Source of the DNA: a virus
Strand: one strand, 5' to 3'
Length of the DNA stretch: 53,894 bases
IMG/VR virus record: IMGVR_UViG_3300050119_000052
Span: 1-53,894 of that record
Positions 3,189 to 48,441 of the stretch are shown here, in pieces. The translations under genes and the position numbers were made by a program. Position 1 is the stretch's first letter. Each line of letters starts with the position of its first letter. Below the pieces are notes generated by a model, which was not told where the DNA came from, made no database searches, and saw nothing but the letters and a program-made list of their open reading frames with translations.

Positions 3189-4118
3189 GTGGCGTTCCCA
3201 ACGCCGGCCGTCGTCCCCCCGACTCTGTCCGCGTGGCAGTTCCAATACGCCGGGCTGACGTTCGGGCACGGGCAGCCGATCAAGATAGCGCAAGTCACCG
3301 GCATCGGTGACCTCGCCGTGATCCGCACAGGCGACCTGTCCAGGTCGAGGGACCATGGGGAACTCATCGGCCTCGACCTCTACGGTGGCCGTGACATCAG
3401 CATCGACCTCGAAGCGGAAGACGCCGGGTCCGGTGTGCAAGCGACCCTGCTCACACTGGCCGCCGCGACCGTCGTGGGTGCGACCACGGAACAGCCCCTG
3501 TGGTTCCAGGTCACCGGCTACCCGCTGCTGTGCGTCATGTGCCGGCCCCGTAAGCGGACCGCCCCGTGGGATGTGGGGTATCAGATCGGGAAGGTCGGCG
3601 TCGTGTCGACGCAGTTCCACGCCACCGACCCCCGCCTGTACGCGGCCACACTGACCGCGACTGTCGGCTTGGCGAGCCCGACCACAGGGGCGACGTTCCC
3701 GGTGACGTTCCCGATGACGTTCGGCACCGTCGCCCCGTCCGGGGTCACGGTCACCAACGCGGGCAACACCGAAACGCGCCCAGTGCTGGTCATCACCGGC
3801 CCGGTCACGAACCCGTCGGTCGCGAATTCGACCATCACGGGCGCTCCGACGTTGCAGTTCAGCAACCCGAATCAGGTCGGCTACACGGTCAATTCTGGGG
3901 ACCAGCTGGTCATCGACACTGATACGCATTCGATTCTGTATTACGTCGGGGGGGTGTCGTCGGGGTCCGCCCCGGCGTCCCGCGGGGGCTGGTTGGTGTC
4001 GGGTTCGACGTGGTGGGATCTGCCGCCGGGTGCGTCGCTGATTCAGTTCCTGTCGCAGGACTCCGCATCCGTCGCCGGAACGGTCCAAATAATTTGGGCT
4101 TCGGCGTATCAGCTATGA
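3189..4118 (+). CDS. Distal tail protein (Dit-like)
   Basis: This 309-residue protein starts at GTG one base after the tape measure stop. Gene position immediately after the tape measure, size, and a two-part all-beta sequence (N-terminal FQYAGLTFGHGQPIKI, C-terminal carbohydrate-binding-like sheet with Gly/Ser loops) fit the siphovirus Dit family that forms the ring at the tail tip. Its last codons overlap the next start as ATGA, which implies translational coupling. No catalytic motif is seen. Confidence 0.75.
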   Translation: MAFPTPAVVPPTLSAWQFQYAGLTFGHGQPIKIAQVTGIGDLAVIRTGDLSRSRDHGELIGLDLYGGRDISIDLEAEDAGSGVQATLLTLAAATVVGATTEQPLWFQVTGYPLLCVMCRPRKRTAPWDVGYQIGKVGVVSTQFHATDPRLYAATLTATVGLASPTTGATFPVTFPMTFGTVAPSGVTVTNAGNTETRPVLVITGPVTNPSVANSTITGAPTLQFSNPNQVGYTVNSGDQLVIDTDTHSILYYVGGVSSGSAPASRGGWLVSGSTWWDLPPGASLIQFLSQDSASVAGTVQIIWASAYQL

Positions 4119-5296
4119 GTATCCGCGTCAACGACGACGGCGACCCGAACACCATCACCTACCTCTTCACCGATCTCCATGGGAATCGCATCGAAGAACT
4201 ACCCATCACCGGGGTCACGTTCAGCCTCGCCTTGAACGCCTCCGGGCCGTTCGCCGGTTCGCTGAACATCGAAGACCCTCGAGTCCAAGCATTGGACTGG
4301 CAGGCGGCGACAGCACCGAACCTCGCGCAGGTGTGGGTCGACATCAACGGGACCCTCGTCTACGGGGGGATCGTCCAGGAACGCACCTACGACATGCCCT
4401 CCGGGACCGTCGCGATCAAGGGCACCGACCATTACGGGTACCTGATCCAGCGGTTGCAGGCGCAGGACTACTCCACGGTGTGGGCCACGACCCCGTTCGG
4501 GGCCGCGCAGATCGCGTACACGGTGATCACGGATGCGCTCGCTGTCGCGGACTCTCTGCCGCTGTCGGTGACGACCCCGGCGGCGACACCGTCCCAGTAC
4601 GGGATCACGTTGGCGGCGCCGATCAGTCAGCGCATGACGGTCGATTCGATCATCAATCAGGTGGCGGTGTTGGGGTGGCTGGTGGGTTTCGACTACGCCA
4701 TCGACGTCAAATACGTGGCCGGTGTCCCGACCGCGACGTTGACGCTCTCCTACCCGCGGCGGGGCCGGGTCGCTGGCACCACAGGTTTGGTCATCGACAC
4801 CCAGTCGGCGCTCGCGTTCACGTTCGACGAGTCCGGCACGGCTCAGGCCACCAGCGTCACCGAGGTCGCGACGGGGTCCGGTGGTGTCGCGACCACGGGG
4901 CAGTGGACGGCGGCCAACACGGTCGGGTATCCGCTGCTGGAGCGGGTCGGGTCGCACGCGTCGTTCTCGTCGGCGGCGATCCCACAAACCGTCCTCGACG
5001 CTTATGTGGCGAACGATTTGGCGTTGTCGGCGTATCCGGTGGTGACCCCGCAAGTGACGATGCCGATGTTCGCTGAGCCCGCGATCGGGGAGTGGATCGT
5101 CGGTGATGATGTGCGGATGCTGGTCGCGAAGACGTTGGGTGCGGGTCCGCCGCCGAATCCGCGGTTCCCGGCTGGGATGGACTTCTATTGGCGGATCACC
5201 CGCGCTGATGTGACCGTGCCAGCCGAAGGCATCCCCACGGTGGCGTTCACGTTCAACATGCCGCCGTCGTCGACGCCGCAGCGGCCACCGCAATAG
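4115..5296 (+). CDS. Minor tail protein, Tal/gp27-like hub
   Basis: This 393-residue protein begins with ATG in a 4-base overlap with the Dit-like gene. The order tape measure, Dit, this gene is the standard tail-tip order, in which the second protein is the tail-associated hub that anchors fibres. The sequence is beta-rich and ends in a Pro/Ser tail (PPSSTPQRPPQ). The reading frame extends 35 codons upstream, but the ATGA junction is the better start. It is followed directly by a minus-strand stem-loop element of the GNCACCCA family. Confidence 0.7.
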   Translation: MSIRVNDDGDPNTITYLFTDLHGNRIEELPITGVTFSLALNASGPFAGSLNIEDPRVQALDWQAATAPNLAQVWVDINGTLVYGGIVQERTYDMPSGTVAIKGTDHYGYLIQRLQAQDYSTVWATTPFGAAQIAYTVITDALAVADSLPLSVTTPAATPSQYGITLAAPISQRMTVDSIINQVAVLGWLVGFDYAIDVKYVAGVPTATLTLSYPRRGRVAGTTGLVIDTQSALAFTFDESGTAQATSVTEVATGSGGVATTGQWTAANTVGYPLLERVGSHASFSSAAIPQTVLDAYVANDLALSAYPVVTPQVTMPMFAEPAIGEWIVGDDVRMLVAKTLGAGPPPNPRFPAGMDFYWRITRADVTVPAEGIPTVAFTFNMPPSSTPQRPPQ

Positions 5297-5299
5297 GGA

Positions 5300-5367
5300 A
5301 CACTCAGCGGAGACGCCCGTCTGCATCCTGGGTGACGAAACAAATCTGGGGCATCTCCGCTGAGTGC
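5300..5367 (-). repeat. GNCACCCA stem-loop element, type C, copy 1
   Basis: Read on the minus strand this 68-base element is a 20-base arm (GCACTCAGCGGAGATGCCCC), then AGATTTGTTTC, GTCACCCA, GGATGCAGAC and a 19-base return arm. It obeys the same rule as the arrays at 22142-23985: unpaired C, A-N9-C, core, N9-C. The arms pair over about 17 of 19 positions. A TAGACT box (5375-5380 on the complementary strand) lies 7 bases upstream of the element in its own sense, as in the other two type C copies, and could be a -10 hexamer. It fills the gap between two tail genes. Confidence 0.85.
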
Positions 5368-5416
5368 CGCCCACAGTCTAACTGACTGAGCCGCGCAACC
5401 CAAAGGGGGACTTGGA

Positions 5417-6292
5417 ATGCCTGGTGTTTCGCCGCCAAACAACGAGAAATTCTTTGCGCTGCTCGGCGGCATGCAAAAGCAATTGCAAGCCATGAGCACC
5501 CAGCAGCAGCAAGCGATCACGAACGCGCTCGGGCAGGTGATCATCAACATCGGTTTGGTGCCCGGCTCGGACCCGGCCCGATATGGCATTCAATTTCTTG
5601 ATCCGAGTTCGGGTACCGAGATCGCGTTTTTAGGGGAAGGCACGTCTGCGGCGTTGTCGCTGTTGTTGGCCAACGATGGCAGTTTGACGATGAAGTCGAC
5701 TGCGGGCACGACGGTGCTGTATGCGGGTCAGGCGGCGATCCCCGACGGCAGTGGTCGCCTGCAAGAGGTCTTCGAGTTGTACCGCGACGACGGCTCGATA
5801 GCCCTGGCGCTAGGTGACTTCGGGACCGTCTACGACCACGCCCACCAACAGGCACTGCAGTGGTACGACCGCAGCGGCCGCATCGTGCTCGCCGATGACA
5901 CGACGAGCGCTCACGGCCTCGCGGCTCCACATCTGGCAACCAGCGGAACGCTTGTCAATACCAATACCTCAACGTGGCCAGCGACGACCAGCTCGGGCTT
6001 CACGACAATCGCCAACGGTGAAGTAGAACTACACAATCCGAAACTCAAATGGACGATCACGTTGATGGCGGATTCGGGGGTGACGGCCGAATTCCAGATG
6101 CTCATCAACGGCACCCAGATCGGCACCACGCAAACCGTCACAAGTGGCTTCTCGACATGGACGGCGACCAACCAGTCGCTTGGCGGCCTGCTACCCGGTG
6201 GTACCTACCTTGTGGAACTTCAAGCCAAGGTAACTGCTGGCAGCGGATCAGCTCGCGCGCAATGCCTGCAAATCACCGGCGATCAGTCCTAG
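5417..6292 (+). CDS. Minor tail protein
   Basis: This 291-residue protein is preceded by AAAGGGGGAC, a strong ribosome site nine bases before ATG. An N-terminal Gln-rich helix (residues 10-40) is followed by beta-rich sequence with GTSAALSLLLANDGSLTMKS, typical of collar or tip proteins with repeated sheets. The last 90 residues look like a separate beta-sandwich. It lies among tail-tip genes and is the first gene after a minus-strand stem-loop element. The family is not recognised precisely. Confidence 0.65.
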   Translation: MPGVSPPNNEKFFALLGGMQKQLQAMSTQQQQAITNALGQVIINIGLVPGSDPARYGIQFLDPSSGTEIAFLGEGTSAALSLLLANDGSLTMKSTAGTTVLYAGQAAIPDGSGRLQEVFELYRDDGSIALALGDFGTVYDHAHQQALQWYDRSGRIVLADDTTSAHGLAAPHLATSGTLVNTNTSTWPATTSSGFTTIANGEVELHNPKLKWTITLMADSGVTAEFQMLINGTQIGTTQTVTSGFSTWTATNQSLGGLLPGGTYLVELQAKVTAGSGSARAQCLQITGDQS

Positions 6293-14061: not shown

Positions 14062-16323
14062 GTGGCTGTTGCATTCGACGCGGTCGGCCCGTCAGCGGCG
14101 GGCACCGACACGTTCGTCTTTTCCGGCACGACCGGCTCACTCACGTGGTCGCACACTGTCGGCGCGGCCGGCACCAACCGCTGCTTGTTCGTCGCTGTCT
14201 CCTTCGGTAACGAGGGGGGCAGCGACGCCTCGACGGCGGTCACCGTCACCTATGCCGGTGTGTCCATGACGAGTATCGGCGTGGTCCACGCCGACAACTC
14301 CACGGTCGGTTTCGTTCAATTGTTCGGTCTCGTCGCGCCTGCGACCGGCGCGAACAACGTCGTCGTTTCCGTCACTGGCATTCCGACAGCGGCGACGGAC
14401 AACAACACGATCATCGGCGGGTCGGTCAGCTTCACTGGCGTCAACCAGACGACCGGGTGGGGCACAGGCGTCACCGCCTACGGCAACTCGGCCGCTCCCA
14501 GCGCCGCCGTCACGGGCGGCTCGACGTCGGAGATGGTCATCGACGCCGTCACCAGCGGTACCGGTGGCACCACCTCGACTCAGACGAACCGCTGGACGCT
14601 CAACGCGAACACCTATTCCGGGGCGGGTAACTCGGCTTCTTCGACAGCGGCCGGTAGCGCCTCGAGCGTCACCATGTCGTACTCGATCACCAGCGACTAC
14701 TGGGGGATCGTCGCGTGCCGCGTCGAAGCGGCCAGCGGCACGATCACGGCTACGGGTTCGATCACCTTGTCGGGTGCCGACGTCTGGGACGAGCCGGCCA
14801 GCGGCAGCCTCACACTCACGGGCGCGGCGTCCACTTCCGGGCGGGCGACCGCGTCGGGGGCACTGTCGCTCAGCGGTGCCGGCACCTGGAACGAGCCGGC
14901 CAGCGGTAGTTTGTCGCTCGCCGGTACAACGACGTGGAACGAACCCTCTAACGATTCGCTCTCCTTGTCCGGCGCCGCGTCCAGCGTCGCCCACGCGACC
15001 GCGTTAGGCAGCCTGTCCCTCACGGGTGCAGCGACCTGGTCGACCGGTTCGGCCGGATCCGTTACCTTCTCCGGCGCCGCATCGGGTGCAACGGAACCGA
15101 CCGCAGCCGGCGCGCTGACTCTCAGCGGCGCCGCCACGTGGGACGAACCCGCCAGCGGCTCACTGTCGCTATCCGCCGCATCGACCTGGTCGGAACCAGC
15201 GTCGGGGTCGCTCAGCCTGACCGGCGCCGTCAACAACGCCATCACCGCGGCCGGTGCACTGACCCTCACGGGTGCCGCCACCTGGTCCGAGCAGCCAACT
15301 GATTCGCTGTCTCTCACGGGGGCCGCGTCGGCGACTGGGAACCCCGCCGCCGCTGGCAGCCTGTCGCTGGCCGGTGCCGCTACGTGGAACGCCACCGCCG
15401 CCGGTTCCCTATCACTGTCGGGCGCGTCGACCTGGTCCGAGCAACCATCCGGCGCTATCACCCTGTCCGGTGCGGGCACCTGGACCGAACCCGCCAGCGG
15501 CGCTATCACGCTCACAGGTGCGACCACCTGGTCCGAGCAGCCATCCGGCAGTCTGACCTTCAGCGGGTCCGCATCGGGTAAGGCGGAACCGACCGCCGCC
15601 GGCAGCGTCACGCTGTCCGGGGACGTCAACAACGCCATCATCACCACCGGTTCGTTGTCCCTTACCGGCGCCGCATCGGCGAGCGGCGAACCGACCGGCA
15701 GCGGCTCAGTCACCCTCACCGGCTCATCGACGTGGGACGAACCGGCGAGCGGTGCGATCAGCCTGGCCGGTTCGGCCACGATCACCCAAACCACCACCGC
15801 GTCGGGTTCGGTCACACTGACCAGCACCGCGTCGGAGTTCGTGACCCCGTCGGCGGCTGGGTCGGTTGTTCTCTCCGGTGCCGCTCTCGCCTACACCACG
15901 ACCACCACCGCCGGGGCGATCACACTAACCGGGGTCGCAGCACCGTACGTTCCCGCAACCGCGTCCGGGTCGATAACCCTCACCGGGACGGCGACTGTCG
16001 CCTCGGCGACACTCACCAAGGTCACGGTCACCGGAGACTTCAACAACACCGCACTAAGCAACGCGATTGGCACGGTGGCGTTCACACCGTCGAGCCCCCT
16101 ACGCGCACCGGCAGCAGGGATATTCGTCGTCCCGTCCACGAAGATCATCCAACTGGCCAACGGCGCGTTCGCGGTGCAGCTGATAGCGACCGACAACCCG
16201 GGGTTGACCCCGCCTGGTTGGACGTATTACTGCGAGATCCGGGTCACCGGGTCACCCGTCAAGTACTTCACGTTCAGCCTGCCGTCCGCACCTTCACCGG
16301 TCGACCTTTCGACTCTGATCTAG
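14062..16323 (+). CDS. Adhesion protein with long tandem GSLSLSGAATW repeats
   Basis: The 753-residue product starts at GTG behind GAGAGGCGG. Residues 1-225 form a beta-sandwich-like head. Residues about 230-645 contain more than twenty degenerate repeats of 14-17 residues with the consensus SGSLSLSGAATWxEP, a pattern expected for a stacked beta-solenoid or fibre shaft. Residues 651-753 form a module (VTVTGDFNNT to STLI) that is clearly related to the first 100 residues of the next protein. There is no enzymatic motif. It is probably a tail fibre or host-binding shaft. Confidence 0.75.
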   Translation: MAVAFDAVGPSAAGTDTFVFSGTTGSLTWSHTVGAAGTNRCLFVAVSFGNEGGSDASTAVTVTYAGVSMTSIGVVHADNSTVGFVQLFGLVAPATGANNVVVSVTGIPTAATDNNTIIGGSVSFTGVNQTTGWGTGVTAYGNSAAPSAAVTGGSTSEMVIDAVTSGTGGTTSTQTNRWTLNANTYSGAGNSASSTAAGSASSVTMSYSITSDYWGIVACRVEAASGTITATGSITLSGADVWDEPASGSLTLTGAASTSGRATASGALSLSGAGTWNEPASGSLSLAGTTTWNEPSNDSLSLSGAASSVAHATALGSLSLTGAATWSTGSAGSVTFSGAASGATEPTAAGALTLSGAATWDEPASGSLSLSAASTWSEPASGSLSLTGAVNNAITAAGALTLTGAATWSEQPTDSLSLTGAASATGNPAAAGSLSLAGAATWNATAAGSLSLSGASTWSEQPSGAITLSGAGTWTEPASGAITLTGATTWSEQPSGSLTFSGSASGKAEPTAAGSVTLSGDVNNAIITTGSLSLTGAASASGEPTGSGSVTLTGSSTWDEPASGAISLAGSATITQTTTASGSVTLTSTASEFVTPSAAGSVVLSGAALAYTTTTTAGAITLTGVAAPYVPATASGSITLTGTATVASATLTKVTVTGDFNNTALSNAIGTVAFTPSSPLRAPAAGIFVVPSTKIIQLANGAFAVQLIATDNPGLTPPGWTYYCEIRVTGSPVKYFTFSLPSAPSPVDLSTLI

Positions 16324-20348: not shown

Positions 20349-20378
20349 ATCGTGCGCTGAATGTCAGAGCGGTGTCAA
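20349..20378 (-). promoter_or_regulatory. Promoter for the lysogeny-region membrane protein
   Basis: Reading leftward, TTGACA overlaps the int stop codon and CACGAT follows after 18 bases. The start codon lies about 27 bases further on, behind AGGGGG. The -35 box is perfect and the -10 box is weak. Confidence 0.55.
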
Positions 20379-21265
20379 GCGACGAGGTGCAGGTTACGAG
20401 GCACCGGCAGACTGCGAATCGCGGCAACCCGTTGATCGAGTCCGATCTCGGTGTACATGACAGTGCTCGCGATATTGGTGTGCCGCATCAGTCGTTGGAC
20501 CAGAGCGACATTACCGGTCGATTCGAGCAATTCCGTTCCAAAGGTATGACGAAGGGAATGGGGGGTCAGCGGTCGACCAAGGCCGGCGCGGCGCATCACC
20601 ATGCTGAGGATGTGACTGGCGCTGTTCGCGAGGATCGCTTCATCGGGATTCTGATAACTGGGGAACCAGAATCCTTCGGACGGCATCCACGCGGCGACCT
20701 CGGCGACGAGCGGATGGAGTGGCACCTCGTCGTAAGTGCCACCCTTTCCGACGACACCGATCATTTCGCCCTTGATGTCCTCGCCGCGGAACTTCGCGAT
20801 CTCCATGACCCGGAAACCCTGATAGGCGCCGAGCAGGATCATCGGCAGTGTGCGCGGGTGAACTCGGGCCGCTAGGAGCTCGTTCAGCTGACAGCGCGTG
20901 AGAGGTCGTGGTTTGCGGCGAATCGGTTTGCCTCGGTGGAGCTGGAGCATCGGATCGTCGGCGCGCAAGCCGGTCTGATTGAGCCAGTTGAACCAGCTCC
21001 GCAGGTTCGAGCGATAGTTCTGCTGGGTGCCGGGTGAAAGGGGCGCCAAGAAGCCTGTGACGTCCCGCCAGTCGGCCGTCAATGGGTCGATGCCCATGCG
21101 CCTCTCGAAGAGACCGACCGTCTCGATGCGTCCTCGGATGGTTTTGGGCGCGAGACCACCGGCCTGCATCCATGTTTCCCAAGCGTGAAGTTTGTCCCCG
21201 ATCACCGATGCATCATGGTCCGTCGACTCAGCGTAAACAAGCCTTAACTTCGAGTTGAACTTCAT
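20375..21265 (-). CDS. int: Tyrosine-family integrase
   Basis: The 296-residue protein has a SAM-like N-terminal core-binding domain (about 20-100) and a full catalytic domain: Arg152 (GFRVMEI), Lys174 (GKGG), His236 and Arg239 (TPHSLRHTFG), His262 (RHTN) and Tyr271. It starts right after the repressor stop, and attP lies inside that neighbouring gene. It inserts the genome into a host tRNA-Asn gene. The C-terminus NLHLVA resembles an ssrA-type LVA degradation tag, as described for BPs-type integrases, suggesting that protein turnover controls lysogeny. Confidence 0.95.
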   Translation of the reverse strand: MKFNSKLRLVYAESTDHDASVIGDKLHAWETWMQAGGLAPKTIRGRIETVGLFERRMGIDPLTADWRDVTGFLAPLSPGTQQNYRSNLRSWFNWLNQTGLRADDPMLQLHRGKPIRRKPRPLTRCQLNELLAARVHPRTLPMILLGAYQGFRVMEIAKFRGEDIKGEMIGVVGKGGTYDEVPLHPLVAEVAAWMPSEGFWFPSYQNPDEAILANSASHILSMVMRRAGLGRPLTPHSLRHTFGTELLESTGNVALVQRLMRHTNIASTVMYTEIGLDQRVAAIRSLPVPRNLHLVA

Positions 21266-21673
21266 CTAGGATGCCACCTCAATCGATGTCCGCTTTGTAC
21301 GCCATTCCCTCAGGTCGACCACAGAACCATTCGCTAGGTAATCGAAGGGTTGCTGGTTCGAGTCCAGCCGGGGGAGCACACCCGTCGAGTCGGGCGGCGG
21401 CGTGGTGCCATTGGGGCGTGAGGTCATGAAGCGCCAGATCGGAATCTGGAGCAGCCTGGCGAGACGGTCCAGGTCGTCTACGTCGAGCGCCTGGTCAGCC
21501 GTGCTGATGCGCCGACTCCAATAGGACTGCGAGTTGCCGAGCAGCTTCGGCAATCTGTTGATCGTGATCTTTGCTTTTGCGAGTTCCGAGCGCACTTCGG
21601 TGGCAACGCGCCCGCGGGCGCTCGACCGATCGGGCATCGGAACGACGTTGCTCATACCATCATTGTTCGTCAT
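21266..21673 (-). CDS. Immunity repressor with attP inside the gene
   Basis: The 135-residue product (start MTNNDGMSN) has a helix-turn-helix of the XRE type (AKITINRLPKLLGNSQSYWS, about residues 33-52, with support helices to 82). Residues 99-112 (VLPRLDSNQQPFDY) are simply the antisense translation of a tRNA-Asn 3' half, which is attP. Integration would cut the gene there and produce a repressor of about 100 residues. The ATG lies seven bases past TATATT, so a leaderless start is preferred over the longer frame from 21736. The viral form ends in IEVAS, a possible degradation tag. Confidence 0.85.
   Translation of the reverse strand: MTNNDGMSNVVPMPDRSSARGRVATEVRSELAKAKITINRLPKLLGNSQSYWSRRISTADQALDVDDLDRLARLLQIPIWRFMTSRPNGTTPPPDSTGVLPRLDSNQQPFDYLANGSVVDLREWRTKRTSIEVAS
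21339..21377 (+). other. attP core, 3' half of tRNA-Asn
   Basis: TAATCGAAGGGTT is followed by the T-arm GCTGGTTCGAGTCCAGC and the acceptor CGGGGGA. From memory this equals the actinobacterial tRNA-Asn(GTT) sequence from within the anticodon loop to the 3' end. No 5' half is present, so it is not a functional tRNA gene. It adjoins int and sits inside the repressor, so it is read as the crossover core that restores the host tRNA on integration. Confidence 0.85.
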
Positions 21674-21679
21674 GCGGTC

Positions 21680-21708
21680 AATATAGCCCCTCACCGGATA
21701 CTTGCCAA
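21680..21708 (-). promoter_or_regulatory. Repressor promoter (leaderless)
   Basis: TTGGCA and TATATT are 17 bases apart on the minus strand. TATATT-GACCGC-ATG places +1 at or next to the repressor start. The arrangement mirrors the divergent cro promoter. Confidence 0.75.
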
Positions 21709-21758
21709 GGAAGGTGATTGACAATCTCCTGTCCATGGGGATGTTAGTCGCTCAAGGG

Positions 21759-21787
21759 TTGACACAAGCCCATCATGCGGCTAACTT
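21759..21787 (+). promoter_or_regulatory. Early rightward promoter (leaderless)
   Basis: TTGACA and TAACTT are 17 bases apart. TAACTT-GACCAC-ATG puts +1 at the cro start codon. This is the probable lytic early promoter and target of the repressor; no operator palindrome is obvious in the 21674-21793 interval. Confidence 0.8.
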
Positions 21788-21793
21788 GACCAC

Positions 21794-22027
21794 ATGGCAA
21801 CCAACACCACCGCTGCGCGGGTAGCTGGGAAGGTCCGAGCCGCTCTCGCAGAAGCGCGGGTATCGCGCCAGTCCATCGCCGACGCGCTTGGAATCTCACT
21901 CTCGGCCATCACCCGGCGCCTCAACGCTGAGATCCCATTCGATGTGGCCGAGCTGGACAAGATCGCCGAGCGCCTCGACCTTCCGATGAATGCGCTGATC
22001 GTGACGCCAGATCAGGTGGCGTCGTGA
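21794..22027 (+). CDS. Cro-like helix-turn-helix regulator
   Basis: The 77-residue protein is a single XRE-type domain: VSRQSIADALGISLSAITRRL forms the helix-turn-helix (about residues 24-43), followed by the stabilising helices of the fold. It is divergent from the repressor with mirrored promoters, the classical Cro position. Its C-terminus QVAS matches the VAS end of the viral repressor. It is the first gene of the rightward early operon. Confidence 0.85.
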   Translation: MATNTTAARVAGKVRAALAEARVSRQSIADALGISLSAITRRLNAEIPFDVAELDKIAERLDLPMNALIVTPDQVAS

Positions 22028-22141: not shown

Positions 22142-22259
22142 CCCCACCACGCCAAGACGGCGACGTCACCCAGAGGTCCAGCGCGTGGTGGGGCCAAAAC
22201 TTCCAGCTTCCCCGGCAGCCAACCGGAACACGACACCCAACGGCGACTCGCTGCCGGGG
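22142..22259 (+). repeat. Stem-loop array I (two GNCACCCA elements)
   Basis: Element 1 (22143-22192) has type A arms, CCCACCACGCC and GCGTGGTGGG, and holds AAGACGGCGAC, GTCACCCA, GAGGTCCAGC. Element 2 (22210-22259) has type B arms, CCCCGGCAGCC and GCTGCCGGGG, and holds AACCGGAACAC, GACACCCA, ACGGCGACTC. Each is exactly 50 bases with a 10-11 bp perfect stem and a 30-base loop. The array is preceded by ATGACC and followed by GGGGGAACAC-ATG of the next gene. The whole stretch is also open in the frame of that gene, but low complexity and the repeat rule argue against coding. Confidence 0.9.
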
Positions 22260-22282
22260 ACCACTACTCAGCGGGGGAACAC

Positions 22283-22756
22283 ATGACCGGATTCAAAGAA
22301 ATCGTAGGCGACGTGCTGGAACACAGCGCCCGCAACGACCCCAACGAACTCGCAGAAGAGATCATGGGTCGGCTCACCCTGCCGCAGATCCGTGAAGGGC
22401 TAGCGCTCGCCCTCCCGGAGTACGTCCGACACGCGTTCCATCGCATCACCTACACCCCCGACCCTGACCCGTCTCGGCGAGTCAGGCAGGCGGCGGGGGC
22501 GTGGGATCGGCACAAGCAGCTCCTCGCTGTCCGCAAGCTGGGGTTGGAGGACTGGAAGCCGTTCGGGGAGTTCACCGCTGCGGATTGCACTGCGGCGGCG
22601 GAGTTGCGGCGGTTGAAGGCGTCGGAGTCGACGGCGCGAGCGGTCAAGTTCGACGCGACGGCTGAGGCTGTTGTGGCTGCGGGTGTCGCGTGTGTCGCGG
22701 ACCTGCCTGCTGATGTGCTTCTCGGTTTGTGGGGTAGCCATGACCTCGGCGAATAA
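22283..22756 (+). CDS. Early-region protein of unknown function between arrays I and II
   Basis: The 157-residue protein starts at ATG behind GGGGGAAC, directly after array I; the frame is open 53 codons further upstream through the array, which I exclude. The sequence is helical. The segment KLGLEDWKPFGEFTAADC followed by ELRRLKASESTARAVKFDATAEA resembles a common actinophage early hypothetical family. Its end overlaps an ATGACC that opens array II. No function is recognised. Confidence 0.7.
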   Translation: MTGFKEIVGDVLEHSARNDPNELAEEIMGRLTLPQIREGLALALPEYVRHAFHRITYTPDPDPSRRVRQAAGAWDRHKQLLAVRKLGLEDWKPFGEFTAADCTAAAELRRLKASESTARAVKFDATAEAVVAAGVACVADLPADVLLGLWGSHDLGE

Positions 22757-22761
22757 GACCT

Positions 22762-23048
22762 CCCCGGCAGCCAGACCGCCTACGTCACCCACAAGGGCAC
22801 CGCTGCCGGGGACCCAAACCACCGCCACGCCACGCTGGTCGCGTCACCCACATCTGGTTCGCGTGGCGGTCCTATTCGACCCCGGCAGCCAAAGCCGCGC
22901 CGTCACCCATGTCGTGGGCGCTGCCGGGGTCCATATTCCCCCACCACGCCAGAGGTCGACCGTCACCCAACGCCCACACGCGTGGTGGGTTCACACGTCC
23001 CCGGCAGCCAGCCCGCAGCCGTCACCCAGACGAGGCACGCTGCCGGGG
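22762..23048 (+). repeat. Stem-loop array II (five GNCACCCA elements, B-A-B-A-B)
   Basis: Elements are 22762-22811 (B), 22821-22870 (A), 22880-22929 (B), 22940-22989 (A) and 22999-23048 (B), each exactly 50 bases, spaced by 9, 9, 10 and 9 variable bases. Variable N9 pairs are GACCGCCTA/CAAGGGCAC, CGCTGGTCG/CATCTGGTT, AAGCCGCGC/TGTCGTGGG, GAGGTCGAC/ACGCCCACA and GCCCGCAGC/GACGAGGCA. All five cores are GTCACCCA. The A stem at 22821 has compensatory changes (ACCGCCACGC with GCGTGGCGGT), which supports base pairing. The interval is otherwise empty and ends 22 bases before the IS110-like gene. Confidence 0.95.
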
Positions 23049-23070
23049 ACCTCACTCATCGGGGGACCAC

Positions 23071-23805
23071 ATGACTGACCTCTACGACCCACTCCTCGGC
23101 AACCTCGCCGCCACAGTCGACGACCTCGAGATGGTTCGGAAAGCCGCCGAGAACCGTCTACGGCAGTTGACTAGGACCGGCGTCGACAAAGACGGCACCT
23201 CACGCGGCTTCGGACTACCCGAAGACCACCTATCCGTCCAAGCGGCCACAGTCATCGTCGACGGACTCAAGCGAGTCGAACACCAAGCGATCCTGCTGTT
23301 ACAGCGCCAACTCCGCACCCACCCACTACACCCGTGGATCAAGGCCCAAAACGGGCTGGGTGAGAAAACCGTCGCCCGACTGCTCGCCGCGATCCAGGAC
23401 CCGTACTGGAACGACCGACACGACCGCCCCCGCACCGTTGGTGAGCTGTTCAAGTTCTGCGGTGTCGCCGGCCCCGGTCAGCGTAAGCGGAAGGGTGAAC
23501 GGGTCACGTGGTCGCCTGAGGCGCGGATGCGATTGCACGTGATCATCGAGCCGATCGTGAAGAATCGGCGGTCGCCCTATCGGGCGGTTTACGACCAGGC
23601 GCGGGTCAAGTACGCGGAGAAGACGCACACGGAGGTGTGTGTGCGGTGCGGCCCGGCGGGTAAGCCTGCGCTGGTTGGGTCGCCGTGGCCGCCGGCTCAT
23701 CAGCATGCGGCCGCGATGCGCCTGGTGAAGCGTGCAGTTCTGCGCGGGCTGTGGGAAGAATCCCGCCGGTTGCATGGTGCCGACGAACTGAAGGTCGCAG
23801 CATGA
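23071..23805 (+). CDS. Stand-alone IS110 Transposase_20-like protein
   Basis: The 244-residue protein starts at ATG behind GGGGGACC, right after array II. Residues 89-110 form a helix-hairpin-helix (QNGLGEKTVARLLAAIQD), followed by RTVGELFKFCGVA, RKGERVTWSPEARMRL and KNRRSPYRAVYDQARVKYA, the order of the C-terminal Transposase_20 domain of IS110 transposases. The N-terminal 88 residues are helical and lack the DEDD RuvC-like domain, and the SG motif holding the catalytic serine is not seen. A CVRC-x15-HQH set could bind zinc. It ends KVAA. There are no IS ends. It may bind the neighbouring stem-loops; that role is inferred. Confidence 0.75.
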   Translation: MTDLYDPLLGNLAATVDDLEMVRKAAENRLRQLTRTGVDKDGTSRGFGLPEDHLSVQAATVIVDGLKRVEHQAILLLQRQLRTHPLHPWIKAQNGLGEKTVARLLAAIQDPYWNDRHDRPRTVGELFKFCGVAGPGQRKRKGERVTWSPEARMRLHVIIEPIVKNRRSPYRAVYDQARVKYAEKTHTEVCVRCGPAGKPALVGSPWPPAHQHAAAMRLVKRAVLRGLWEESRRLHGADELKVAA

Positions 23806-23816
23806 CCACTCAAACT

Positions 23817-23985
23817 CCCGCCACGCCAGCCATCTGCCGACACCCAGCTCTCTCGCGCGTGGCGGGGCTCAACTACCCCGGCAGCCATGGGCCTGGCGTC
23901 ACCCAAGCGATGACCGCTGCCGGGGTCCTAAACGAATCGTCGCGCCAAGTCCCAGCCGTCACCCATCAGAGGGCCGCCCGTCGGA
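23817..23985 (+). repeat. Stem-loop array III (three GNCACCCA elements, last degenerate)
   Basis: Element 8 (23817-23827 arm to 23866, type A with CCCGCCACGCC/GCGTGGCGGG) holds AGCCATCTGCC, GACACCCA, GCTCTCTCGC. Element 9 (23876-23925, type B) holds ATGGGCCTGGC, GTCACCCA, AGCGATGACC. Element 10 (23936-23985) keeps the loop rule (AAGTCCCAGCC, GTCACCCA, TCAGAGGGCC), but its arms pair at only 6 of 10 positions. The array opens with ATGACC overlapping the IS110-like stop and ends just before the next start. A 69-codon frame spans it with ATGA overlaps at both ends. Confidence 0.85.
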
Positions 23986-24007: not shown

Positions 24008-24631
24008 ATGACCAGCACCGAAGAGGCCAGCGGCGATCTGCGACCGTGCCCGCGCTGCAATGGACGGGGGACCGTTCACAGCAAAGAGGTTGTCCACGGC
24101 ACGCTCTACGCGGCCACTCGTCTCCGCTGCCGATGCGATCTCTGCTCTGCTGCTCGCCGGGATTACGACTCAGCTCGATTGGGTCACCGGATCCGGTCTC
24201 GCGCAGAGCAGAAGCAGGCGCGACTCGAGTCGGCCGGAGAGTTCATCACCCTTCACCAGTCAGGCCTGACGATCGCGGAGATAGCGGCCAAGGTGAACCG
24301 GTCGATCAACTTCGTTGCTGGCGCGTTGCATGAAGCGGGATATCAGCCGCGGCGGGGTATTACCGCGACTTTCCTCGAGCACGGAACCCGCGCGTACAAG
24401 GTCCGCACAGGCTGCCGCTGCGATCTGTGCCGCGCTGCCGTCACCCGCGAGAAGAAGGAAGCGCGCCAGCGGCGCCACGAAGCCATGCTCGCTGGCCAAG
24501 TGAACCCGCCGCACGGATCGACCAGCACCTACAGCAACTACACCTGCCGCTGCGATCTGTGCCGCGCTGCGTGGTCGGTCCGTATGCGCGAACAACGCCA
24601 GCGCCGGAAGCCACCGAGAGGCCGGTCATGA
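24008..24631 (+). CDS. Zinc-binding protein with three CRCDLC motifs and a central helix-turn-helix
   Basis: The 207-residue protein follows array III. It has CPRCNGRG near residue 14 and three copies of the pattern HGT..Y...CRCDLCRAA (about residues 30-50, 125-145 and 175-195), each with three Cys suited to zinc. Between copies one and two, LTIAEIAAKVNRSINFVAGAL is a helix-turn-helix. The repeated Cys module is familiar from actinophage early proteins of unknown role. Nucleic-acid binding is likely, and its position makes it a second candidate partner of the stem-loop arrays. Confidence 0.7.
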   Translation: MTSTEEASGDLRPCPRCNGRGTVHSKEVVHGTLYAATRLRCRCDLCSAARRDYDSARLGHRIRSRAEQKQARLESAGEFITLHQSGLTIAEIAAKVNRSINFVAGALHEAGYQPRRGITATFLEHGTRAYKVRTGCRCDLCRAAVTREKKEARQRRHEAMLAGQVNPPHGSTSTYSNYTCRCDLCRAAWSVRMREQRQRRKPPRGRS

Positions 24632-43072: not shown

Positions 43073-44314
43073 ATGCAGGTTCTGACCAGGGATCGGCGCT
43101 TCGAAGAGGTCCGTTCGGGCACCTGGAATCCGGCTCAGCAGTGGGGTTCGACTGTGCCGCCCACCAACGGGCAGGCGGGTGGCGTCGCGGCCTCGGGGAC
43201 GACGGTGTCGGAGAAGCACGCGATGCAGCTCGCGGCGGCGTGGGGGTCGGTGTCGATCATCTGCGACGCGTTGGCGACGCTACAGATCCGGCAGTACAAG
43301 CTGGTGTCGAGTAGCGACGTCCCGGTGCAGATGGACCCGTCGCAGGTCATCGCGGAGCCGTGGCCCGAGATCAATCAGCTGGATTTCATCACCCAGGGCA
43401 CCTATTCGCTTTTGCAGCGGGGGAATCTGTTCGGCAACATCACCGCACGGGACCCGAACACCCTTTACCCGACGCAGGTGCAGCTCGTCCACCCTGATCA
43501 TGCGCGGGTTCGCCGCGCCGGCCAGGGGCAGATCGAGGTGTCCTACTTCAACAAGGTCGCGAACCCCGACAATGTGACCCGGGCGATGGCGCTGTCCGTC
43601 CCTGAGGGACTGGTCGGGTTGAACCCGATCGAGTACATGCGTAACTCGTTCGGGCTGGGTTTGGCGCAGGACGGCATGAGTGGTTCGTTCTTCGCGAACT
43701 CGGCTAGGCCCGATGGTGTCCTCCAAGTCGAGGGTGATCTGGACCCGGACGAAACGAAGGCGATGCTCGCCGCGTGGAACTCCTCCCATCAGGGCATCGA
43801 GGCCGCGTACGGCGTCGGTGTGTTGACGAGCGGCGCCAAGTGGCAACCGATCACGATGAACCTCGCGGACGCCCAGTTCTTGCAGCAGATGCAGTATTCG
43901 GCGTCGGTGATTTCCGGGATGATTTACCGGGTTCCGCCGCACATGCTCGGCATCGTCGACAAGTCCACGTCGTGGGGTGCCGGCATCGAGCAGCAGGAAC
44001 AAGGGTTCATCACCAACACCATCGGGATCTGGCTGGCCCGCTGGGAAGACTTGATGACGTCGTGGCTGCCACCAAGGCAGTTCGTGATGTTCGACCTGAG
44101 CAAGCGGCTCCGTGGTGACACGTTGCAGCGCTGGTCGATGTATCAGATGGCGCGGGTTATCGGTGCGATGAACAACCTTCAGATCATCAAGGCTGAGGGT
44201 TTGGAGATTCCGACGGACCCGGCGGTGTTGGCGACGTTGGCGGATTATGCGGCGCCGTTGAATTCGGCGCCGATGAAGCCGACGAATTCCGCAGTCGACG
44301 GAGACAAAGCGTAA
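43073..44314 (+). CDS. Portal protein (HK97 type)
   Basis: The 413-residue protein has the portal pattern: AMQLAAAWGSVSIICDALAT, a DFITQGTYSLLQRGNLFG segment, the crown-proximal IYRVPPHMLG near residue 284 and GIEQQEQGFITNTI. Position between terminase and protease is canonical. It forms the dodecameric DNA channel. Confidence 0.95.
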   Translation: MQVLTRDRRFEEVRSGTWNPAQQWGSTVPPTNGQAGGVAASGTTVSEKHAMQLAAAWGSVSIICDALATLQIRQYKLVSSSDVPVQMDPSQVIAEPWPEINQLDFITQGTYSLLQRGNLFGNITARDPNTLYPTQVQLVHPDHARVRRAGQGQIEVSYFNKVANPDNVTRAMALSVPEGLVGLNPIEYMRNSFGLGLAQDGMSGSFFANSARPDGVLQVEGDLDPDETKAMLAAWNSSHQGIEAAYGVGVLTSGAKWQPITMNLADAQFLQQMQYSASVISGMIYRVPPHMLGIVDKSTSWGAGIEQQEQGFITNTIGIWLARWEDLMTSWLPPRQFVMFDLSKRLRGDTLQRWSMYQMARVIGAMNNLQIIKAEGLEIPTDPAVLATLADYAAPLNSAPMKPTNSAVDGDKA

Positions 44315-44321
44315 TAGCAAA

Positions 44322-44389
44322 GCACCCAGCGGAGAAGCCCGAAAGGGAAATGGGTGACGTTTTGGAGATGGGGCTTCCCCGCTGAGTGC
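44322..44389 (-). repeat. GNCACCCA stem-loop element, type C, copy 2
   Basis: Minus-strand order is GCACTCAGCGGGGAAGCCCC, ATCTCCAAAAC, GTCACCCA, TTTCCCTTTC and the return arm. The arms pair at 17 of 19 positions. A TAGACT box lies 7 bases upstream in its sense. The two N9 blocks (TCTCCAAAA, TTTCCCTTT) are AT-richer than those in the arrays. It occupies the whole portal-protease gap. Confidence 0.85.
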
Positions 44390-44419
44390 AGCCACAAGTC
44401 TACCTGAAAGGAGGTCGCC

Positions 44420-45394
44420 GTGACAGACGACGCAAGCGACGCAGCCGAGGAGAAGGCTCTGCCGAAGTCGGTCGAGTGGCGCAAGACGCGCGCCATGGAA
44501 CTGCGAGGCGCCGAGCGTCGCACCCATCTGGAGCATGTCGAGTTCCGCGACAACCCAGACGGGTCCCTGCATCTGTCCGGTTACGCATCGGTTACGAATA
44601 CTCCATACGATATGGGATGGTATTCCGAGTCGATCTCCCGCGGCGCGTTCGCGAAAACCCTCGCCGAAAACCCCGACGTGCAACTCCTCGTGAACCACGC
44701 CGGGCTGCCGTTGGCGCGCACCAAGTCGGGCACTTTGCAACTGTCTGAGGACAACACGGGGCTGCGGGTAGACGCTGATCTCGACCCGGAAGACCCCGAC
44801 GTGCAGTCGCTGTCGCGGAAGATGAAGCGCGGCGATATCGACCAGATGAGCTTCGCGTTCCGTGCGACCAGGCAGTCCTGGGACGAGGACTACACCGACC
44901 GGCAGATCACCGAATGCGATATTCACCGCGGCGATGTCAGCGTTGTGAATCAGGGTGCGAACCCGAGCACGTCCGTGTCGGTGCGCACTGAAGACGCACT
45001 GGTGGCGTTGCGGCACATCGGGCACCTCGGATTCCTCGAGGCGATGCTCGACATTCGGCGCTTCTCCGGCACTCCGCTGGAGCAGCGGGCCGGGATGACG
45101 CTGTCCGCGGCCACCACCGAGGTACTGACCCAGGTGCTGGCCCTCATTGCGACGGCGGACGAAGCAGTCGACGAGGCTCAGCCGCTCCTGGCCGATCTGA
45201 TGGGCGTCCCCAACCCCGACGAGCCCGAAGAGGACGCGAGCGATGCGACCGTCGATGACACCAGCGACGAAGGTGACGACGGCGACCAGGGCGGCGACGA
45301 GGGCGAACAGGACTCGGCCCGCAGCGTGTCGCTGGCGTTGGAAGCCCGCCGCCGCCTAGAAGCGCTCCGCTACCCGAAGAAGGACGCAGCATGA
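44420..45394 (+). CDS. Prohead protease
   Basis: The 324-residue protein starts at GTG behind AAAGGAGGT, an ideal ribosome site. SGYASVTNTPYDMG, VQLLVNHAG (His) and GDIDQMSFAF (Ser) are the HK97 U35 protease landmarks in residues 50-155. A long acidic C-terminus (DEPEEDASDATVDD and further) could be a scaffold segment. It processes the capsid precursors. Confidence 0.9.
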   Translation: MTDDASDAAEEKALPKSVEWRKTRAMELRGAERRTHLEHVEFRDNPDGSLHLSGYASVTNTPYDMGWYSESISRGAFAKTLAENPDVQLLVNHAGLPLARTKSGTLQLSEDNTGLRVDADLDPEDPDVQSLSRKMKRGDIDQMSFAFRATRQSWDEDYTDRQITECDIHRGDVSVVNQGANPSTSVSVRTEDALVALRHIGHLGFLEAMLDIRRFSGTPLEQRAGMTLSAATTEVLTQVLALIATADEAVDEAQPLLADLMGVPNPDEPEEDASDATVDDTSDEGDDGDQGGDEGEQDSARSVSLALEARRRLEALRYPKKDAA

Positions 45395-46539
45395 CCAGCG
45401 TCGAAGTCGTGTCCGAGCCGCTCACCTACGAGCGGCACGGCCCCCACTCGTACTTCCAGGACATGTATCGGGCGCAGGAAGATCCTCGCGCCTTTGACCG
45501 CTTGTCCCGGCACAGCGCGGAGATGCGGGTCGTTGGTGAGAAGCGGGAGGCACGTGCCCGTCAGGCGCTCGACGCTGGTGACCTGGAGTACCGGGTCAGC
45601 CCCGACACAACTCAGGGCACGGGCGGGTACCTCACCGTGCCACTCTGGCTCGATCAGTTGTTCGCGACGGCGCCGCGCCCGGGCCGGATCTTGGCAGCTC
45701 TGATCGAGGCTGCGTTCGACCTGCCTGACGGTGTGTCGTCGATCAACGTCCCGATTCTGACCGCTGGCACGGCCGTGCAGCCTGTGCTCGACGACTCCGC
45801 GGCGCCGAGCGCTGATGTCACCGACGCGGCGGGTTCCTCGACCGTCGTCACCCTCACTGGCCAGTCTGATTGGCCGATCCAGGCACTGGAGCAGTCCCCG
45901 GCCGGTGCCGCCCTGGATTGGGTGATCTTCACCGACATGGCTGCCGCCTACGACGCCCAACTCGAAACGCAACTCCTCACCGGACTGGGTGCCGCTGCGA
46001 AGCAACTAGTTGGTGTCCTCAACGTCGCGGGCACGGTCGGCGTCACCTACACCAACGCGTCGCCGACCGGCGCGTTGCTGTACCCCTATCTCGGCCAAGC
46101 GACGGCTCGGGTCGGTAACAACCGCAATCTGCCGCCGGAGGCGTTTCTGATGCGGACGGCTCGGTGGGCGTGGCTCGCTACGTCTGAGGACACGCAGGGC
46201 CTCCCCTTTTTCTTGCCCACGTTTTTTCTCGGCGACGACGAGGACACCCCGGATGCGCTCGGTGGTGTCGTCGGGATCCCCGTGTTCTGTGATGACGCGT
46301 TGCCCGCGAATCTCGGTGCGGGCGGCAATCAGGATGTCATTGTCGCGTTGCGACCGTCGGACATGGTCATTTTCGAAGGCACCCCGCAGACCACCGTGAT
46401 GCGTGAGGTGCTGTCCGGGTCGCTCGGTGTCCGCTTCCAGATGCACAACAGAGTTGCTGCGATCACGAATCGCTACCCGTCCGGTATCTCGCCCATTACC
46501 GGGACGGGCCTCGTCGTGCAGTCAGGCTTCAGCTCCTGA
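45391..46539 (+). CDS. HK97-fold capsid protein 1
   Basis: The 382-residue product has RVSPDTTQGTGGYLTVPLWL as the N-arm to E-loop region and REVLSGSLGVRFQMHNRVAA near the end, the Phage_capsid family pattern. It lacks a long scaffolding N-terminus, having only about 55 residues before the likely cleavage region. It is clearly paralogous to the next gene, so it may be a minor or vertex capsomer form. Confidence 0.85.
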   Translation: MTSVEVVSEPLTYERHGPHSYFQDMYRAQEDPRAFDRLSRHSAEMRVVGEKREARARQALDAGDLEYRVSPDTTQGTGGYLTVPLWLDQLFATAPRPGRILAALIEAAFDLPDGVSSINVPILTAGTAVQPVLDDSAAPSADVTDAAGSSTVVTLTGQSDWPIQALEQSPAGAALDWVIFTDMAAAYDAQLETQLLTGLGAAAKQLVGVLNVAGTVGVTYTNASPTGALLYPYLGQATARVGNNRNLPPEAFLMRTARWAWLATSEDTQGLPFFLPTFFLGDDEDTPDALGGVVGIPVFCDDALPANLGAGGNQDVIVALRPSDMVIFEGTPQTTVMREVLSGSLGVRFQMHNRVAAITNRYPSGISPITGTGLVVQSGFSS

Positions 46540-46548
46540 CGCAATGGA

Positions 46549-46616
46549 GCACCCAGCGGAGAAGCCCGCACACCGACTGGGTGCCGCTCATGACCTGGGG
46601 TCTCTCCGCTGAGTGC
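46549..46616 (-). repeat. GNCACCCA stem-loop element, type C, copy 3
   Basis: Minus-strand order is GCACTCAGCGGAGAGACCCC, AGGTCATGAGC, GGCACCCA, GTCGGTGTGC and the return arm. The core differs by one base (GG instead of GT). A TAGACT box lies 8 bases upstream in its sense. It sits between the two capsid genes. The 46617-46782 stretch adds a CCGGGC/GCCCGG hairpin and the ribosome site of the second capsid gene. Confidence 0.85.
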
Positions 46617-46782
46617 CGTCCCCGAGTCTAACCACTAGTCGTTTCACCCCACGCCGGGCCTGTGCCCGGTGCGCGCCGCTGCACCCACGGGTCGCAGCAC
46701 CCGCACCGGACGTGGCGCACCACCTGGGAAATCCAGCAAACCCCCAGAGCGCACGAATGCGCCCGACGCTAGGAGAACAGCA

Positions 46783-48441
46783 ATGGCAGACAAGAAGGAG
46801 CCGACGCTCCTCGAACTTTTGAACGAGCGCCGCCAGAAGGCGTTCGAAGCATGGAGCGGTGAGATCGGCAGGCGGGAGACCGCTGATACCGATTTCGAGG
46901 CTCGCCGCAACGCTACCGACGAGGCTGTGCACCCGACCGACGACGAGGTGACGGCGCACCGTGACGCGCAGGCCGCGTTCCGGGTCCGCTCGGACGAGGC
47001 TGAGGTGGAGTTGCGCGAGTTCGACAAGCGCATCGACGAACAGGGTGAGATCGAGACCCGCCGCGCCGCCGCCGCCGCAGCCAGCAAGGGCAACGCCGAG
47101 GTCGAGTCGGAGCCGCTGACCTATCGCCGCGACAACGCCCACGTACGGTCCTACTACGCCGACCTCGCCGTGGCGATGGTCGACGGGGTGACCTTGTCAC
47201 GCAACAACAAGACCGAGGCCCTGACCCGCCTGAACCGGCACGCCGCCGAGATGGACGTCGAGATCCCGAAGCGGATCAAGGCGGCCGAGGCCCGCGCCGT
47301 CGCCCGGTTCGCGGAGGCCGAGTCCCGGTCCGTGTCGCGCCGCAACGGCGTCACCATGGAAGATGTTCGCCCGCTCGCCTACGACCCGTTCCAGCGGTCA
47401 CGGCGTGGCGCTGAACTGGAGGAGCGGGTCACCCCGAACCGGCAGGACGGCTACGGCGGGTACCTGATCCCACCGTTGTGGCTGCCCGAGGACTTCATCC
47501 CCGGCCTGCGTGCTCAGGGTGTCGCCCGGGACCTGTGCCGGCAAATGGACTTGCCCGCCGGCACCGACAGCATCAATATCCCGAAGTTGGCGAACCTGAC
47601 CGCGGTTGGGTATCAGCAGGCGGACAACTCCGGTGTCGTGACGCAGGACTGGACGGACACGTTCGTTCAGGCCAATGTGAAGACCGCCGCGGGGCAGTCC
47701 GACGTCGCGTTGCAGCTGTTGGAGCAGTCCCCGAACGGCATCACCGACGAGGTGATCACCACTGACCTGCTGGCCGCGTACAACCAGTTCGTTGATCAGC
47801 AGGTGATCTCCGGTGACGGTGTGTCGACGGGGCAGCTCAACGGCGGCCACATCCTCGGGATCTACCCGTCGAGCAACTGGGCGAACACGAACGGCGTGAC
47901 CTACACCGACAGCTCCCCGGCTGGTGTGCACTTCGGTGCTGGCGCGATGGGCCCGTTGGCGTCGAAGATCGCCCGGACTCGTTTCGACGTCGAGGACTTC
48001 GCGATCGTGATGCACGGTCGCCGCTGGTTCTGGTACTCCACGGCGAATGACGTCAACGGTCGCCCGCTCGGTGAGACCCTCGGAGCTGGTCGGTTCCAGG
48101 CGGCGGTCGCTGAAGAGGAACTGGCCGCCTACGGCCGGGTCGGCACCTTGCCGTACCTCGCTGACGCGCCCGTGTACATCGACAACAACATCCCGATCAC
48201 CGACACCGCTGGTGGCGGCTCGGCACAGGACATCGCGATCGGTGCCCTGTGGTCGGACCTGTGGCTGTTCATGGGCGACCTGCGGACGAACGTGTTCCGT
48301 GAGGTTCTCTCCGGCAGCCTCGGTGTCAGGTTCCAGGTCTACAACTACTTCGCGTTCCTCGCGCGGTACGGCCAGTCGATCGCTGTCGCGACCGGCTCCG
48401 GTTTCGCTCAGCCGTCCACCGGCTACGGCGACTACTTCTAA
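46783..48441 (+). CDS. HK97-fold major capsid protein 2 with scaffold domain
   Basis: The 552-residue product starts at ATG behind TAGGAGAAC. Residues 1-115 are a charged coiled-coil delta/scaffold domain (LLELLNERRQKAFEAWSGEI), residues 115-215 repeat the spacer seen in capsid 1 (RLNRHAAEM), and the HK97 fold follows from TPNRQDGYGGYLIPPLWLPE to FREVLSGSLGVRFQVYNYFA. It is the likely major capsid subunit, matured by the upstream protease. Confidence 0.9.
   Translation: MADKKEPTLLELLNERRQKAFEAWSGEIGRRETADTDFEARRNATDEAVHPTDDEVTAHRDAQAAFRVRSDEAEVELREFDKRIDEQGEIETRRAAAAAASKGNAEVESEPLTYRRDNAHVRSYYADLAVAMVDGVTLSRNNKTEALTRLNRHAAEMDVEIPKRIKAAEARAVARFAEAESRSVSRRNGVTMEDVRPLAYDPFQRSRRGAELEERVTPNRQDGYGGYLIPPLWLPEDFIPGLRAQGVARDLCRQMDLPAGTDSINIPKLANLTAVGYQQADNSGVVTQDWTDTFVQANVKTAAGQSDVALQLLEQSPNGITDEVITTDLLAAYNQFVDQQVISGDGVSTGQLNGGHILGIYPSSNWANTNGVTYTDSSPAGVHFGAGAMGPLASKIARTRFDVEDFAIVMHGRRWFWYSTANDVNGRPLGETLGAGRFQAAVAEEELAAYGRVGTLPYLADAPVYIDNNIPITDTAGGGSAQDIAIGALWSDLWLFMGDLRTNVFREVLSGSLGVRFQVYNYFAFLARYGQSIAVATGSGFAQPSTGYGDYF

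Follow-up and report, generated by a model that had tools for sequence, protein, structure and literature searches.

Hairpin units between late genes of a temperate phage as probable single tigRNA units of a TIGR-Tas system

The element between two capsid genes and its unit layout

What is the inverted-repeat element that stands between two capsid genes of the IMG/VR virus record IMGVR_UViG_3300050119_000052, and what does its nearly constant core represent? The whole stretch analyzed, positions 1 to 53,894 of that record, is called the window here. An initial annotation, made from the letters alone, had placed a "type C" element between capsid paralogues, a location that holds, as both flanking genes match the major head protein family phrog_2263. 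The best explanation, mechanism included, is that this element, C1 (46546..46621, − strand), is a single tigRNA unit of a TIGR-Tas system of the TasA type and stem-loop class in a temperate phage, and we put the probability of this reading at roughly 0.78. Judged from the sequence layout, what was called the core corresponds to the predicted box D, loop, and box C of a guide RNA whose predicted spacers are the nine-nucleotide segments (N9) on either side.

A repeat finder grouped 46546-46621 with 44319-44394 and 5297-5372, and repeat finding, pattern scanning, and folding all supported C1, whose unit is readable on the minus strand, where GGCACCCA occupies 46585-46578. G-N-CACCCA sites occurred 37 times in the window on both strands, and 13 of these lay in the frame stem-CA-N10-core-N10-stem, 10 on the + strand (22165-23965) and 3 on the − strand. 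The second position of the core was T in 10 copies, A in 2, and G in 1, and the other seven bases were identical in all 13, confirming for the window what the initial annotation had stated. Because all N10 segments (26/26) end in C, the unit is CCA-N9-CG-NCAC-CCA-N9-CG inside a stem. This layout of stem, CCA, N9 spacer, CG-N-CAC-CCA, N9 spacer, CG, and stem was rigid in 13/13 copies; the corresponding pattern matched the window 13 times (10 forward and 3 reverse), and the same pattern written backwards matched 0 times. In C1, the long stem encloses CCA at 46598-46596, spacer A GGTCATGAG at 46595-46587, CG-GCAC-CCA at 46586-46578, spacer B GTCGGTGTG at 46577-46569, and CG at 46568-46567, all on the − strand. 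The minus-strand hairpin was more stable than shuffled sequences, with a z value of −3.3 for C1 and of −5.3 and −7.5 for the two sister copies; the predicted minimum-energy fold of C1 kept the outer stem and paired part of the loop otherwise.

According to the main text of PMC12045711, box C of the guide RNA reads CCA and box D reads UG. Sought as UG or as covarying stem and loop forms, the boxes were found as CCA and CG in 13/13 window units, box C at the stem and in the loop and box D at both places. All 13 units have two 9-nt spacers, and a variable palindromic stem takes the place of edge repeats. Two constant anchors and two variable 9-nt segments within one hairpin thus give the layout of a TIGR stem-loop array. 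In related phages the "core" is not fixed: CG (or TG) and CCA are conserved, with variable bases in between. A known Rfam RNA was rejected as an identity, with 0 matches at the gathering score in the window, and so was a tRNA, none having been found.

The tas gene, its array, and the turnover of spacers

The gene of a nuclease-free, TasA-type Tas protein of 244 amino acids lies at 23071..23805 on the + strand (open reading frame [ORF] 23071-23802). The ORF belongs to phrog_4285, which PHROGs labels transposase. Against Pfam it matched 0 families at E ≤ 1, the IS110 transposase domain being among those not matched, and its only sequence relatives in PDB at E ≤ 1 were chain A of 9mty (8.5e-9), identified as TasR from its Foldseek title, and TasH (1.7e-8). 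The AlphaFold model of the protein reached a pLDDT of 89 and a pTM of 0.79, and all 11 of its 11 Foldseek matches at E ≤ 1e-3 were TasH or TasR chains, with IS621 and ISCro4 behind them and box C/D Nop5 matching weakly. A Nop-type RNA-binding fold was found by sequence, model, and Foldseek alike. Since the window protein has 244 residues versus 331 and 354 for the two nucleases, and no nuclease domain was recognized in it, it was called TasA-type.

The ten + strand units form three blocks around this ORF. Block 1 (22152..22250) holds units 22152-22183 and 22219-22250, coordinates that mark the loop side, the stems reaching about 10 nt further out. Block 2 (22771..23039) consists of five units (22771, 22830, 22889, 22949, and 23008) in which two stem types alternate, and block 3 (23826..23976) of three units (23826, 23885, and 23945), the stem of 23945 being weaker.

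The association of such units with tas was then followed in other phages. A generic unit scan, allowing a loop of 2-11 nt between boxes and a stem score of at least 7, was applied to the window and to ten named phages (Rich, BPBiebs31, Morrissey, prophiFSAT01-1, Buttons, Pinto, BENtherdunthat, Spooky, Euphoria, and Peregrin). It detected 54 units, 12 in the window and 42 in the ten whole phage genomes, and 0 in reversed sequence; the thirteenth window unit, 23945, was missed owing to its weaker stem. All 42 units of the named phages were located within approximately 2.1 kb of tas. Furthermore, an alignment search with Tas yielded 44 viral loci, 38 of which had units near the Tas match; 197 of the 198 units near Tas lay on the tas strand, 5 more were found farther out, and the reversed control gave 0. 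Of 19 unit-bearing records tested, 18 had the family phrog_4285, as against 0 of 14 control genomes. Searches of viral contigs with the Tas protein alone or the capsid protein alone returned no loci, and no Tas was found in plasmids. Homologous Tas occurred in 76 Mycobacterium phage records, most with M. smegmatis as the listed host.

Among 113 distinct units, stem positions 2-10 each showed GC, CG, AT, and TA pairs; position 1 was always CG, as the search pattern demands, and because the units were selected by stem score, this result shows the variety of pairs and not an unbiased pairing rate. Arms that vary freely as long as pairing holds suggest that pairing, not base recognition, is what matters. 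Spacers were compared in 12 A1 M. smegmatis phages that carry units about 340 nt upstream of tas and whose tas genes are 96.5-100% identical (mean 97.7%). In unit 1, the stem had a mean identity of 97% with 3 forms, whereas identity was 37% for spacer A and 38% for spacer B, each of which had 9 forms. In unit 4, which fitted the pattern in 11 of the 12 phages, the stem was invariant, and the spacers were 35 and 34% identical, again with 9 forms each. The stem arms are partly fixed by the extraction pattern, and the alignment gives the better view of their conservation. In some of the 12 phages one unit was wholly shared and the next one different. As these alignments indicate, the N9 segments are spacers, and the guides apparently turn over in fixed scaffolds. 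Complete spacer replacement and an apparent reshuffling of whole units between phages were also observed in this set.

Several further observations concern tas and its surroundings. In 84 phage GenBank records tas is annotated as a transposase, DNA-binding protein, or hypothetical protein, and the annotated start of Rich gp50 (4791-5774 of its locus, L126) takes in two guide units. The tas genes of Gordonia phage BENtherdunthat (insert at 3404-3520 of locus L133), of locus L044 (11049-11169), and of Spooky (L135) carry an in-frame insert of about 38-41 amino acids in one loop. In the first two, the insert equals two tandem tigRNA-type units, and the Spooky insert includes one unit (at position 36151 of the record), so that guide units lie inside the gene of their own effector. 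At 2860-3155 of locus L112, stems repeat in order and three units share spacer A GACCTGCAC, which looks like a partial duplication of the array. In the window, an immunity region on mixed strands (20375..22027) precedes the array, with a tyrosine integrase (20375-21265, −), a repressor-like gene (21266-21736, −), and a Cro/repressor-like gene (21794-22027, +). Directly behind the last array block lies a gene (24008-24631) whose product contains three CRCDLC motifs and weakly resembles HNH, HTH, and integrase families of PHROGs.

Lone units in late-gene gaps

Three units stand apart from the array: C1, C2 (44319..44394, unit core 44340-44371, − strand), and C3 (5297..5372, unit core 5318-5349, − strand). 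Each is single, lies in a late-gene gap, and is directed opposite to the late genes. C1 is flanked by major head protein paralogue 1 upstream (45391..46539, +) and paralogue 2 downstream (46783..48441, +), C2 by the portal (43073-44314) and head maturation protease (44420-45394) genes (43073..45394, +), and C3 by a minor tail gene and a phrog_9849 gene. None of the three belongs to a tandem array, the distance to the array ranging from approximately 17 kb (C3) to 23 kb (C1), and their stem scores were 14.9-17.9 compared with 10-12 for array units. On the minus strand, TAGACT occurs 7-8 nt before the stem base GCACTC of each unit, at 46625..46630 (C1), 44397..44402 (C2), and 5375..5380 (C3), and the outer flanks differ. 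TAGACT was found exactly 3 times in the window on both strands, always at a type C unit, with a shuffle average of 6.4. It fits TANNNT, the loose −10 consensus of mycobacterial promoters, and is here a putative −10 element.

This motif was counted 2-10 nt before the stem in all units, a solo unit being one with no same-strand neighbor within 1 kb. TANNNT preceded 5/21 solo units and 5/271 clustered units (Fisher p 2.4e-4), C3 being scored negative since its stem, as delimited in this count, extends to the motif; the mirror motif downstream occurred in 1 solo unit and 8 clustered units. A promoter at the type C units is likely, judging from the position and sequence of TAGACT. Units far from tas were also seen in two other IMG/VR contigs. 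In G013, tas is at 109200 and single units are at 28912, 17506, and 16353 (80-93 kb off), and in G003 a single unit at 107055 lies about 16 kb from tas at 123676; these dispersed units are on either strand. The ten named whole genomes had no unit at such a distance from tas. Dispersed units are therefore uncommon, and among those seen here only the type C units have both their stem and an upstream motif in common.

The capsid region was next compared with that of relatives, the check that had been proposed along with the initial annotation. A related capsid protein was found in 57 records, with about 32-34% amino acid identity among the matches listed. Three of these records were compared, namely prophiGD43A-5, Baka, and Cracklewink. 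Their portal and protease genes share 1-4 bp, which leaves no counterpart of the gap in which the 44319 copy resides; each has a single annotated major capsid gene in the region, and the 9.3-10.1 kb examined of the three contained no unit. The type C stem sequence was found in no other IMG/VR contig. A gain of the type C units in this lineage would fit these sequences, the relatives being too distant for exact insertion boundaries to be read. The initial annotation had further suggested that the elements insert or are kept at operon gaps of structural genes, an interpretation that is partly supported. The element is indeed repeated and lies in such gaps in 3/13 copies, but 10/13 copies are the array around tas in the early/immunity region, and the units are read as guide-RNA hairpins; an operon-gap insertion element was therefore rejected as the main class.

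Other repeats and duplications were noted in the window. The two adjacent phrog_2263 paralogues span 45391-48441, a region with a single annotated copy in the three relatives. A repeated GTGGCTAGTCAACCC-type sequence occurs at 34310, 35266, 35676, and 36271, the copy at 34310 being a small ORF start, and a long tail-side ORF contains degenerate coding repeats of 55-73 nt at 14724-15730, with spacings that are multiples of 6.

Proposed mode of action, counterevidence, and alternatives

The primary study of TIGR-Tas, the only one found in the PMC literature searched, is PMC12045711, and the following comparisons refer to its main text. The TIGR stem-loop arrays with TasA described there from a Peromyscus leucopus gut contig resemble the window system in their hairpin units, spacers of 8-12 nt between boxes, palindromic stems that replace edge repeats, a solo Nop-domain Tas, and three sub-arrays. 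The window differs from them in its CG box D, a loop repeat of constant length, and a tas gene within the array, and it adds three lone units antisense to late genes with a shared TAGACT. With the dual-repeat TIGR arrays of TasR and TasH in the same study, it shares two 9-nt spacers, a loop repeat ending in CCA, and the Tas fold, whereas it has long stems instead of short edge repeats and no recognized nuclease domain. Hairpin guide RNAs and a related RNA-binding fold, the latter seen in the weaker Foldseek matches, are also features of the IS110 bridge RNA systems IS621 and ISCro4; the window Tas, however, lacks an IS110 transposase domain (Pfam, E ≤ 1), and there are many units, not one. Solo promoter-linked tigRNA units were not found described in the text covered of PMC12045711 or of PMC12385481. 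In the former, as far as covered, mycobacteriophages appear only in the reference list, and in the latter, a review, no mention of stem-loop, mycobacterial, or solitary units was found in that text. We read the type C units as putative stand-alone tigRNA genes, a variant that appears new relative to the text covered of PMC12045711.

In the mechanism that we propose, TAGACT would serve as a −10 element, making each type C unit a tiny tigRNA gene antisense to the late operon. Processing would cut its RNA down to one hairpin, which a Tas dimer would load, and the two spacers would bind opposite strands of one DNA site, 5′-A-rc(B)-3′ (rc, reverse complement), with a gap of 0-2. PMC12045711 reports that the two spacers pair with opposite strands, A with one and B with the other, that no flanking motif is required, and that gaps of 1-2 bp are tolerated. 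The site layout was derived from the cleavage rules in its main text, where 8-nt 3′ overhangs and the "C - 5" rule lead to 5′-A-rc(B)-3′, although its wordings on the cut side differ. Lacking a nuclease, Tas would block or bend the target, not cut it. Type C guides would be made with late transcription off and opposed by antisense late mRNA with it on. Prophage "morons" are small cargo with their own promoter between late phage genes; a type C unit, by comparison, would be cargo that encodes only RNA, spans about 90 bp, and lies on the opposite strand, with no terminator found. We offer, tentatively and as a doubtful proposal, that type C units act as "RNA morons": own promoter plus one guide, placed backwards in the late operon, would be expressed only while the late genes are silent and would arm Tas in the prophage, and the lytic late transcript, a perfect antisense, would turn the guide off; a single Tas would then work with two sets of guides, one from the early array and one for lysogeny.

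Several results weigh against the reading of C1 as a tigRNA unit or against its mechanism. Box D is CG here and not the UG of TasR, and 6/44 Tas loci had no unit by the pattern used. Strict sigma-70 scans gave no promoter at the type C sites, no −35 is evident there, and the dispersed units of G003 and G013 lack TANNNT in the counted place. Without the window, TANNNT preceded only 3/18 solo units (p 0.009), and since the motif was defined after seeing type C, this count is the only independent test; promoters on solo units as a general rule are thus only possible, with weak support outside the window.

Target searches point the same way. For self-targeting, the 13 window pairs did no better than 156 swapped pairs, and 55 units searched against 11 genomes in both layouts did no better than random pairings (400 for all genomes and 1,500 for self). 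Exact 18-nt sites (gap 0) of 12/13 window pairs, unit 23945 being left out, and of 3 A1-phage pairs were absent from 50,697 phage records; in a power control with the same database size, an exact 18-mer scored E 5.9, under the limit of 10, but the low-complexity filter of the collection, absent from this control, could hide the A-rich C2 target. A C1 target with a gap of 0-2 gave 0 matches in IMG/VR and 24 stretches in 84,980 bacterial/archaeal genomes versus about 22 expected by our own estimate (3 gaps × 2 strands × 257 Gb / 4^18). Five Nocardia matches align over approximately 590-620 nt and are one orthologous place. Because 24 is about the chance number and these five represent one place, none was called a target.

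Could the type C units instead be non-functional copies of array units, mobile or duplicated scraps that spread and are tolerated in gene gaps? No distant unit was found in the ten whole named relatives, the type C stem is confined to this contig within IMG/VR, and some units occur at unexpected sites, the inside of tas genes included. The CCA, CG, and NCACCCA anchors and the exact 9-nt spacers, however, are intact in all three, no other units of the set have stems as long, and TAGACT is conserved although the bases around it differ, which makes such scraps improbable. If the hairpins were instead plus-strand elements at which late mRNA ends or is processed, this would suit their position just after late-gene stop codons and the stability of the plus-strand hairpin (z −3.0). 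Yet no intrinsic terminator with a G+C stem, a 3-8-nt loop, and a T run was found at the type C hairpins: 0 terminator-like sites occur at 43900-47200, and the only one at 4800-6000 (5648-5660) is off the hairpin. Moreover, the tigRNA layout exists on the minus strand only, and TAGACT has no known plus-strand role, so we consider this explanation highly improbable. Symmetric inverted arms around a central 8-bp core, about one helical turn on each side, would also suit a double-stranded DNA site for an operator, partition, or recombination. Such a site is hardly credible, as the arms differ freely between units while still pairing, the core is not fixed in relatives, and the units follow the tas strand (197/198).

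Taken as a single tigRNA unit, C1 bears on what the main text of PMC12045711, in its Discussion, states as open questions, namely the natural role, the targets, and the spacer change of TIGR-Tas. Two findings make these questions accessible to testing. Guide units can stand alone with an apparent start signal, so that arrays are perhaps not the sole source of guides, and array-centered searches would miss such stand-alone units. The 76 Mycobacterium phage records, together with the 12 near-identical phages that differ mainly in spacers, amount to a natural experiment in a genetically easy host.
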